Assembly: GCF_002727185.1 (NCBI RefSeq)
Contig: NZ_NIZW01000006.1
Location: 372,001-436,000, forward strand
Source: Rhodopirellula bahusiensis
GTDB lineage: Bacteria; Planctomycetota; Planctomycetia; Pirellulales; Pirellulaceae
DNA length: 64,000 nt
Direction: 5' to 3'
Made by a program: the position numbers and the translations under genes. Shown piece by piece: positions 54,318 to 57,579 of the stretch (its first letter is position 1; each line of letters starts with the position of its first letter). The notes under the pieces are model-generated. The model was not told where the DNA came from. It made no database searches and saw only the letters and a program-made list of their open reading frames with translations.

Positions 54318-55181
54318 ATGGACCAAGCGATTGCGAAAGCCGACGCACTCATCGAAGCGATGGGTTGGATCCGCCGATTTCGAGGCAAAACGACCGTCAT
54401 CAAACTCGGCGGCAGTTTGCTCGAAGACCGGGAAGCACTCCAGCACTTGCTGCTGGATGTGATCTTCATGGAAACAGTCGGCCTGCGTCCGGTCGTGGTG
54501 CACGGCGGAGGCAAAGCGATCACCGAGGCGATGGCCAAAGCGGGCATCGAAGCTCACTTCATTCGTGGCCGCCGTGTCACAGATGAGAAGTCGCTAGAAG
54601 TTGTCGAGCAAGTTCTCGCAGGAGAACTGAACGTCGAATTGACCGAGATGATGGAACGCTTTGGCGGCCGTGCTGTCAATTTGTCGCCCCGAACGACTTG
54701 CGTGCTGAAGGGCAAGAAGCTGATCGATCCCGAAGGCGATGACCTCGGCTTCGTCGGTGAAGTGACCGAAGTCGACCGCGACGTGATCGAAAGTTTGGCT
54801 TACACCGACCAAGTCGCCGTGATCCCTTCGTTGTGCACCGACGACAAAGGTCAACTCTACAACGTCAATGCGGACACCGCCGCGATGGCGGTCGCTCAGT
54901 CGTTGGGAGCTGATAAACTCGTGTTTCTGTCGGATGTCAACGGCGTGCGTCGCGATCCGGAAGATCCCCAAACAATCATTCCGGCTTTGTCCGCCGACGA
55001 AGCTCGCCAGTTGATCGCCGATGGCGTGATCAAGTCCGGCATGATTCCGAAGGTCGAAGCTTGCTTGGAAACGCTGGGTCGCGGCGTCCAGAAAGTTCAC
55101 ATCATCGACGGACGTTTGCGACATTCGTTGCTGCTCGAGATTTTCACGACCGACGGTGTGGGCACGGAGATCCATCCGTGA
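54318..55181 (+). CDS. argB: Acetylglutamate kinase
   Basis: 287 residues, the usual length. It phosphorylates N-acetylglutamate in arginine biosynthesis. Key features are KLGGSLLED near the N-terminus, [14 protein letters not shown] (substrate/ATP site), [16 protein letters not shown] and [18 protein letters not shown]. The start ATG 54318 has no in-frame alternative. The next gene begins at a GTG overlapping this stop (GTGA), so argB is translationally linked to an aminotransferase-like gene and then argF. Confidence 0.96.
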
Positions 55182-56641
55182 ACGCGTCCGGCAGCGGCGA
55201 CGGCCCGCTCGGTGACAACTGGATCAATGCGATCGCGGGACGTCTTTCGCCAACCGGTGCGAATTCGTTCCGAGACGCATTGCACCAATTCGCCGATCAA
55301 CCGAAATGGCACGGCGACGCTGCGTTGCGGACAACGGTCGTTGCGCAACTGCGAACGCTGACCAACGCGGACGCGTCGACGATAGCGGACTGCGTTCCCA
55401 CATCGACGCGTGACCAAGCACTGGAACATGCACTTGTCGCGGCACGTCGGCATTATCAATCACAAAATGCAGCGGACGAATCGGCGGGTGACGCTGCTTT
55501 GCCGCCGAAGTGTCTTTGCCTCGTTGGCAGCGATCACGGACGCGGAATCGTCGCGAGAATGGCGAGCGGCAAACCATCGTTGCGAGGCAATGAGTGGCCG
55601 CTGCTGCCCGGCTTTGTTCACGCTCCTGCCGATCGCTTCGTCGAGCGAATTGATTCATCCACCGCGATTGCTTTGGTGTCGCCGGTCGACTTCAGTGGTG
55701 TAGGCCAACCGTTGACCGCGGAATGGTGGGCCGCCTGCCGAGAACGTTGTGACGAAACTGGCACACGGTTGATCGTCGATCACAGTGACTTTCCCGCGGC
55801 AGGCAATGGCTACTTTTTCGCACATGAAATGGTCGCTGGAATCTCGGCCGACGCTGTCATCCTATCCGCTGGACTGAGCGGCGATCTCCCGGGCGGTCTA
55901 TTGGTGCTATCGGAATCACTGGCCTCTCATTTGGATGATACAACTCAGTCCAGTGACTTGGTCGGACACCTGATTTCCTCCGCCCTGTCGACGCTGATCG
56001 AAACTGACGCTCTAGCAATAGAAGCAGACGCGTTCGCGATCGCCCTGGCGGAACGTATTGCCACCCGAGGATGCGTTCGCGACCTGCATGCTTGCGGCCA
56101 CACTGTGATCCTGGAGTTGGACGTCGAGTCACAGGCTTGGAGCCAACAAGCCAAAACGGAACAACTCGTTGCACATCAGTGCAGCGAACATTCCGTGCTC
56201 TTTCAGCCTCCTTTGCTGATAACAGACGAACAACGATCGATCTTGATTGACCGAATCGATGCGGTCCTGGCGGGGTTGGAAGGTAATCAGGAATTAGCGC
56301 AGCCTGCGTCCGACTCGGCAACCAACGCGGATGAGGCAGAAGTTCCCAGCGACATCGCGTCCGAGAACGATGCCGATGACGCATATGACCCCGATGACGA
56401 ACATGCCCCCGATGAAACAGACGAAGAATCCGACGTCGACGAACCAGAAGCGGAAGATGCATTCGAAGAGGACGAACTCGACGAATCAGCCGATGACGAC
56501 TTAGAAGATGAAGACGAGATTGACGACGAGGATGAAGGCGGCGGCGAGGACGACGAAGACCAAACCGAACAAGATGAAACTGAACTGGAAATCAACGAAC
56601 TGGACGAGTTCGAATCCAACGAGGAAACGGAGAAACTTTGA
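55178..56641 (+). CDS. ArgD-like pseudo-aminotransferase with acidic C-terminal tail
   Basis: 487 residues from GTG 55178 (overlapping the argB stop). Residues ~110-370 align by eye with the class III aminotransferase Arg[18 protein letters not shown] fits the Asp-Leu region, [20 protein letters not shown] replaces the usual DEVQ-Gly-Arg-Thr-Gly, and [20 protein letters not shown] takes the place of PDI-AKGLGGG-P-G. The catalytic lysine position holds Ala, and no Lys occurs between residues 133 and 326. The N-terminal fold is shortened. Residues ~385-487 are almost entirely Asp/Glu with Ala/Ser. Aminotransferase activity is not expected; a regulatory or scaffold role is inferred. The place between argB and argF suits an ArgD relative. 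Confidence 0.72.
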
Positions 56642-57579
56642 TGCGACACTTGCTCACGCTCTTTGATCTGACCCCGCACGAGTTGCATCAGATTCTGGCA
56701 ACCGCACAAACACTCAAAGCCAAATTGAAACAGGGCGAACGGCCCGCAATCTTGGAACGCTACACGCTGGCGTTGTTGTTTGAAAAACCAAGTTTGCGAA
56801 CCCGAGTCAGCTTTGAAACAGGCATGAACCACCTCGGTGGCAGCAGCCTTTTCTTGGGTGACGATGTCGGCTGGGGAAAACGCGAATCACCGTCGGACTT
56901 CACACGTGTGCTCGGTCAATTCGTCGATGCGGTAGCGTGTCGTGCGAAATCGCATCAGCGTGTTGAACAACTCGCGGAATACAATGCCGTTCCGATCATC
57001 AACAGCCTCACCGATCTTTGCCACCCCTGCCAAGCGATCGCGGATGTGCTGACGCTGCTGGAAAACTTTGGCGAAGTCAAAGGTCGCCATATGGTCTTCG
57101 TCGGTGATGGCAACAACGTTTCACGTTCACTCGCACTCGCTTGTGCGATGCTGGATATCCAGTTCACGCTTGCTCGCCCGGACGGCTACGAACTCGACCA
57201 ACCATGGCTCGATCGTATCACCGAGAAATTTCCCAACGCGAAAATGAATCAAACGGCCGATCCGATCGCCGCGGTCCAAACTGCTGATGCGATCTACACC
57301 GACGTGTGGACCAGCATGGGACAGGAAGCGGAGTCGATCGCTCGACGCGCCGCTTTCAAAGATTTCCAAGTCAATGAACAGTTGCTCGAAGCGGCCCCGA
57401 AGACCGCTCGCGTACTGCATTGCTTGCCCGCCGTGCGAGGCGAGGAGATCACCGACGCTGTCATGGATGGTCCACAGAGCGACGTGATCGAGCAGGCAGG
57501 CAATCGAATGCACGCCCAAAAAGCTCTGATGATTCAGCTTCTGCGCCCCGAATGGATCACAGAAAACATCAGCGTCTGA
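56641..57579 (+). CDS. argF: Ornithine carbamoyltransferase
   Basis: 312 residues from ATG 56641, which overlaps the stop of the preceding gene (TGATG). It transfers a carbamoyl group to ornithine to give citrulline. The carbamoyl-phosphate motif Ser-Leu-Arg-Thr-Arg appears in [43 protein letters not shown] and [15 protein letters not shown] supply the other binding sites. The length agrees with the family. The converging gene begins 36 bases further on. Confidence 0.96.

Follow-up and report, generated by a model that had tools for sequence, protein, structure and literature searches.

A probable ArgD pseudoenzyme maintained between argB and argF in Rhodopirellula bahusiensis and related Pirellulaceae

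What becomes of a biosynthetic gene whose product has lost its catalytic lysine while the gene still stands in its operon? This question is raised by a gene of Rhodopirellula bahusiensis (55178-56641, + strand, 487 aa; positions refer to the window, i.e., the whole 64,000-nucleotide stretch of DNA that was analysed), which lies between argB and argF and whose product we call pseudo-ArgD. Its GTG start overlaps the argB stop codon (GTGA), and its TGA overlaps the ATG of argF (TGATG); the coupling to both neighbours proposed in the initial annotation is borne out by the reading frame and by the models that the neighbours match. The site was also described as the usual place of argD, and indeed the canonical argD of two relatives (genomes G110 and G167) occupies the same position between argB and argF. 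The features of the locus are as follows.

54318..55181, + strand: argB, N-acetylglutamate kinase, 287 aa (TIGR00761, 228 bits, cut-off 151)
55178..56290, + strand: pseudo-ArgD core, residues 1-371, aminotransferase class III homologue (PF00202; 51 orthologues in one clade; dN/dS)
55532..55543, + strand: Asp119-His120-Gly121-Arg122 replacing Phe-His-Gly-Arg of ArgD, with Phe changed to Asp (orthologue alignment)
55778..55780, + strand: Asp201, counterpart of the Asp that contacts PLP N1 in AstC (DEVQ motif; Asp in 51/51 orthologues; motif match)
55868..55870, + strand: Ala231 codon at the position of the PLP Schiff-base lysine (Lys in 10/10 canonical ArgDs and 0/51 orthologues)
56291..56638, + strand: acidic C-terminal tail, residues 372-487 (up to 67% Asp/Glu per 60-residue window; fast evolving)
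56641..57579, + strand: argF, ornithine carbamoyltransferase, 312 aa; its start codon overlaps the stop of pseudo-ArgD (TIGR00658, 347 bits, cut-off 281)

Relation to ArgD and loss of catalytic motifs

The Pfam model PF00202 (Aminotran_3) matches pseudo-ArgD over residues 78-364 with 46.9 bits and thus passes its gathering cut-off of 30.5. The best three NCBIfam models are acetylornithine transaminases (57-73 bits vs cut-offs of 372-457), and among solved structures, acetylornithine aminotransferases are the best matches. Pseudo-ArgD shares with ArgD (TIGR00707, EC 2.6.1.11) the homology over residues 78-364, the operon place, the HGR residues, the DEVQ Asp and a Gly-rich stretch past the lysine position, but it fails the argD model (56.9 bits vs a curated cut-off of 410), has a shorter N-terminus and an acidic tail, and lacks the PLP lysine and the phosphate-site motifs. 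AlphaFold2, run on a two-row alignment of the own core with its R. europaea counterpart, returned a mean pLDDT of 33.5.

When pseudo-ArgD is aligned with ten canonical ArgDs from its bacterial family, Ala231 falls in the lysine column, which holds Lys in all ten. The replacement of the PLP lysine by Ala and the retention of the DEVQ Asp (Asp201), both noticed at the outset, are confirmed by this alignment. The accompanying statement that this half of the protein has no lysine holds for residues 133 to 325, a span that includes the PLP site, but not for the remainder, since lysines occur at residues 43, 111, 132, 326 and 486. Other motifs are altered as well: the phosphate motif SG(T/A)EANE of ArgD reads TSTRDQALE, the (A/S)TFGGNP loop has no counterpart, and the Glu of EP(I/V)QGEGG is replaced by Ser168. 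The Phe of FHGR, which we take to stack on PLP in ArgD, is found in 10/10 canonical proteins and is replaced by Asp119 here and by Asp in 45/51 orthologues. Residue roles were transferred to pseudo-ArgD by motif from the structure of AstC, in which, according to the available part of the source, the lysine forms the Schiff base, Asp223 contacts N1 of PLP, and the phosphate is held by a Gly-Ala pair together with a Thr (PMC3590144).

An orthologue family with a conserved core

Is the lysine-less protein peculiar to one genome, or does it belong to a family? A search of 241 Pirellulaceae genomes gave matches in 163 (canonical ArgDs included), among them 13/13 genomes of the own genus, and after fetching and aligning, the lysine-less form was recognised in at least 51 of the 241 genomes, spread over nine genera. 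The number 51 is a lower bound, as only some of the weak matches in genomes without canonical ArgD were read; entries L006 and L008 yield one and the same protein, and L006 is not among the 51. R. europaea 6C was the sole relative in the genome-contig scan. The position of the lysine is occupied by Ala in 39 orthologues, Gly in six, Ser in four, and Glu and Gln in one each. Because lysine is missing from all 51, a sequencing error, which had been named as a possible explanation, is excluded. Operon place is equally constant: argB lies upstream in 48/48 loci that reach far enough (three orthologues are cut off upstream by a contig end, and two contain masked sequence), and argF lies downstream in 50/50.

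In a tree of 64 proteins, a quick one with long branches and SH-aLRT as its only support measure, the 51 orthologues form one clade (SH-aLRT 100) beside the canonical ArgDs of G110 and G167. A profile built from twelve members and run against 386 genomes of the order scored 213 bits or more with no protein outside the 51; the next matches had at most 198 bits, and the eight top-scoring ones outside the family all possess the lysine. By these counts, the observed gene is a trait of a family and no accident of one genome. Four members from genus g51 (L066, L074, L075 and L076), which make up the first branch of the clade, carry Ala, Ser, Glu and Gln, respectively, at the lysine position.

To what extent is the protein maintained? 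Comparison of the own species with five close ones gave a dN/dS of 0.11-0.14 for the core, 0.34-0.44 for the tail, 0.04-0.05 for argF and 0.03-0.12 for argB (the argB values take in some sequence upstream of its start, and dS is high in the farther pairs). Compared with argF, the core is clearly the faster-evolving. In 36 core columns, one residue is shared by 85% or more of the 51 orthologues, and seven of these columns have switched from a residue that is fixed or nearly so in the ten canonical ArgDs, giving Asp119, Gly131, His148, Cys191, Asp302, Gln343 and Pro345. Conservation among the orthologues extends to positions in motifs of the former pocket (Asp201 in 51 orthologues, Gly232 in 51, His120 in 47 and Asp119 in 45). 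Judged by this substitution pattern, pseudo-ArgD is a maintained pseudoenzyme, and because its core is under purifying selection and holds conserved and switched columns, the gene is probably neither decaying nor a mere translational spacer. The initial view of descent from ArgD, followed by loss of catalysis and retention of the protein under selection, is thus supported.

Both of the readings just set aside have something in their favour. Decay of the gene, with an ordinary argD at work elsewhere, would agree with its faster evolution than argF, its deletion in relatives and the one frame-split orthologue; nevertheless, 50 orthologues are unsplit, purifying selection is evident and nothing in the own genome exceeds the argD cut-off, so that this reading is very unlikely indeed. 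The split orthologue is from the own genus (G159; L018, G159:C407:51416-52577) and extends over two frames, reflecting either real decay or an assembly error; none of the other 50 is split in this way. A frame kept merely for translational coupling of argB and argF, with an idle protein, would explain the overlap of start and stop with both neighbours in the window and the rapid evolution of the tail. However, coupling needs neither a core dN/dS of 0.11-0.14 nor 36 conserved columns, a gap before argF is usual outside the own genus, and in genus g60 argF follows directly after argB; we give this reading only a slim chance. The newly fixed residues might instead belong to a new, PLP-independent enzyme on the old fold, but no recognised catalytic set is found among the seven, and we regard such an enzyme as improbable.

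The acidic tail behaves differently from the core. The C-terminus of pseudo-ArgD is acidic as initially described, with 57 Asp/Glu among the last 100 residues, and at a threshold of at least 40% Asp/Glu in a 60-residue window, a C-terminal tail is present in 10/13 own-genus genomes. With the same threshold, the other 38 genomes include 16 with an N-terminal acidic stretch; no genome has both, and 25/51 fall below the threshold (in five rows, the core motif was missed and a default position was used, the N-terminal pieces there being short). Therefore, acidic extensions seem to have arisen at least twice, at opposite ends of the same type of core. The tail is, by its distribution, an optional and not a family-defining part. 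Thus, of the two characters whose conservation among orthologues had been put forward for checking, the lysine loss is universal (51/51), whereas the tail varies in place and presence. N-terminal Asp/Glu-rich stretches in other genera were noted in L020, L025-L027, L034, L035, L057, L059 and L060, with EEELEDD repeats in L025 and L026.

The enzyme of the ArgD step

If pseudo-ArgD is not catalytic, which enzyme performs the N-acetylornithine step? The initial annotation expected a functional argD elsewhere in the genome. A probable substitute does exist on another contig, but it is not a second argD: no protein of the own genome reaches the argD cut-off, which 13/14 control genomes pass, and the same model search found no canonical ArgD in the 51 pseudo-ArgD genomes. 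Both argC and argJ were found in the own genome, and R. baltica, a member of the same genus, grows on a mineral medium with glucose and ammonium, as stated in the available part of PMC2754498. A 341-aa frame at G000:C26:78061-79029 gives another, weak argC-like match (43 and 28 bits).

The search for a substitute covered the class III aminotransferases, of which the own genome has five, namely, BioA and HemL (identified by their own models), EctB, the window gene and the following protein.

G000 contig 27, L004:1288-2682, strand not given: AstC-like transaminase L004, 464 aa, class III protein with catalytic motifs

EctB was rejected as a general substitute, as it is present in only 18/51 pseudo-ArgD genomes and 7/13 own-genus genomes. 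L004 contains the PLP lysine, DEVQ, SGAMANE, TFTG and FAGR; in a motif check of seven AstC-like proteins, SGAMANE and TF were present in 7/7, and the strict lysine and DEVQ/DEIQ patterns each in 6/7. Both AstC and L004 belong to the superfamily of pseudo-ArgD, but L004 keeps the catalytic motifs that pseudo-ArgD has lost. In E. coli, astC complements an argD deletion, i.e., AstC can replace ArgD (PMC3590144, in the part of the paper at hand).

L004 scores 104.1 bits with the AstC model TIGR03246, whose cut-off of 609.95 is not reached, and because of this low score, its proposed activity rests on context. A gene of the AstA family (TIGR03243) lies directly downstream of the L004 relative in 66 of the 99 genomes for which both positions were listed. 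Four such neighbours were scanned; they pass TIGR03243 but, at 285-366 bits, fall short of the AstA equivalog cut-off of 391, and AstD stands beside the AstA-family neighbour in one of these four loci. Thus, the L004 relatives occupy the place of AstC. In the own genus, AstA was found in 0/13 genomes, the own one included, and the AstC-like gene in 13/13; this half of the succinyltransferase pathway seems to have been lost there.

The distribution of these genes follows that of ArgD. Among 90 genomes with canonical ArgD (86 over the cut-off and four cut by contig ends), 31 have the AstC-like gene together with AstA, none has it without AstA, one has AstA alone and 58 have neither. The corresponding numbers for the 151 genomes without canonical ArgD are 83, 51, five and 12. 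Thus, the AstC-like gene is tied to AstA only while ArgD exists and outlives AstA once ArgD is gone. Genomes are not independent of each other; counted by genus, the AstC-like gene without canonical ArgD occurs in 18, canonical ArgD only in 37, both in seven and neither in six. The AstC-like gene is present in 50/51 pseudo-ArgD genomes, the exception being G164 (82% complete). An AstC-like match is likewise absent from 17 of the 151 genomes that lack canonical ArgD; completeness was available for 15 of them, of which 12 are below 90% and three are not (G051, 94%; G131, 91%; G229, 91%).

In 22 of the genomes counted as lacking canonical ArgD, a class III protein scores 291-377 bits, below the argD cut-off. 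Eight of these genomes also have pseudo-ArgD (G150, G172, G173, G175, G177, G182, G186 and G190; 291-341 bits). Six such proteins, five from the eight and one from G125, which has no pseudo-ArgD, were read by eye, and all six possess the PLP-site lysine; these sub-cut-off proteins might carry out the ArgD step in those 22 genomes. For the pathway in R. bahusiensis, genome content and gene neighbourhood together make it quite probable that the AstC-like enzyme performs this step.

The co-occurrence of pseudo-ArgD and the AstC-like gene in 50/51 genomes could also be explained by a heteromer of the two proteins, for which LCB1 and LCB2 of serine palmitoyltransferase provide a precedent (PMC3794620, as far as the accessible part of the text goes). 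However, the AstC-like gene occurs in 165 genomes, in 115 of which no pseudo-ArgD was found; the loop whose Thr extends to the phosphate site of the neighbour has become shorter or disappeared; and the two genes are on separate contigs in the own genome and more than 1 Mb apart in the single-contig genome G151. Because of the altered partner-site loop and the many AstC-like genomes without a pseudo-ArgD found, we consider the heteromer less likely and assign it a low probability.

Fates of the locus and the role of the retained protein

A further question is what happened at the same locus in related genera. In 12/14 genomes of genus g60, argB is followed immediately by argF and no argD-like gene intervenes, and the same direct junction was present in 11/11 genomes fetched from g6, g35, g42, g46 and g47. 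Eleven of the 12 g60 junctions show argB at nearly full length and one (L088) its end only; G061 (L100) and G016 (L106) show argF alone and were not counted, and in G008 and G010 a canonical argD is cut by the contig end. Three states of the locus are thus seen, i.e., canonical argD (G110 and G167), pseudo-ArgD (51 genomes) and the direct argB-argF junction, and they are consistent with redundancy followed by either deletion or retention for another purpose. Since relatives deleted the gene cleanly, ArgB and ArgF have no general need of pseudo-ArgD.

We propose that the canonical argD of an argB-argD-argF operon turned into a pseudoenzyme once and in place. An AstC-like acylornithine transaminase, linked to AstA in relatives, would have taken over the N-acetylornithine step and made catalysis by ArgD dispensable, after which some lineages would have deleted argD and others kept the protein. 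The kept protein, which has lost the PLP lysine and the phosphate site and has acquired new fixed residues, some of which fall in former pocket motifs, would serve as a non-catalytic accessory, most likely as a regulator or an assembly partner that is produced alongside ArgB and ArgF. We estimate the probability of this whole explanation at approximately 0.6. Descent, lysine loss, purifying selection, new conserved residues, operon place and the complementary distribution of the AstC-like gene are those of its parts that were read from sequence.

The putative role as a regulator or scaffold, which had been suggested from the first inspection, is plausible. That the retained protein acts on ArgB and ArgF or on their flux is a tentative suggestion, to which we give somewhat less than an even chance. 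The main refinement of the accessory reading is a ligand sensor, in which the emptied pocket would bind a metabolite of the pathway (acetylornithine, ornithine, arginine or 2-oxoglutarate) and signal its presence, whether or not the protein touches ArgB or ArgF. The conservation of former pocket positions (Asp201, Gly232, His120 and Asp119) points in this direction, as does the correspondence by motif of the own Arg122 to Arg141 of AstC, which in the available part of PMC3590144 forms a salt bridge to the substrate carboxylate; on the other hand, Arg122 is retained in just 62% of the 13 own-genus genomes, and the sensor is possible rather than likely. In its fullest and equally speculative form, a non-catalytic regulator would sense a pathway metabolite in the emptied PLP pocket and act on the co-translated ArgB/ArgF, with help from charged and probably disordered extensions that were acquired independently at one end or the other.

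PLP enzymes are already known to have non-catalytic relatives: LCB1/SPTLC1 is a homologue without the PLP lysine that is kept for a role in catalysis and regulation (PMC3794620, in the part available). It belongs to another subfamily and heterodimerises with its active paralogue, a type of complex that would be hypothetical for pseudo-ArgD. PDX1.2 of plant vitamin B6 synthesis is unrelated to pseudo-ArgD in fold and pathway. What the two may have in common is that PDX1.2, going by the title of a work cited in PMC6522883, is a non-catalytic protein that boosts its own pathway. In our literature search, no publication was found that deals with this gene, with an ArgD pseudoenzyme or with its AstC-like replacement.

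Annotation by homology and operon place would label this gene argD, and this label would miss both the probable change of hands of a pathway step and the second life of the old enzyme. Related species offer an active argD, a pseudo-ArgD and a clean deletion at one and the same locus, and since R. baltica, from the own genus, can be cultured on mineral medium, both the replacement and the role of the pseudoenzyme are directly testable.
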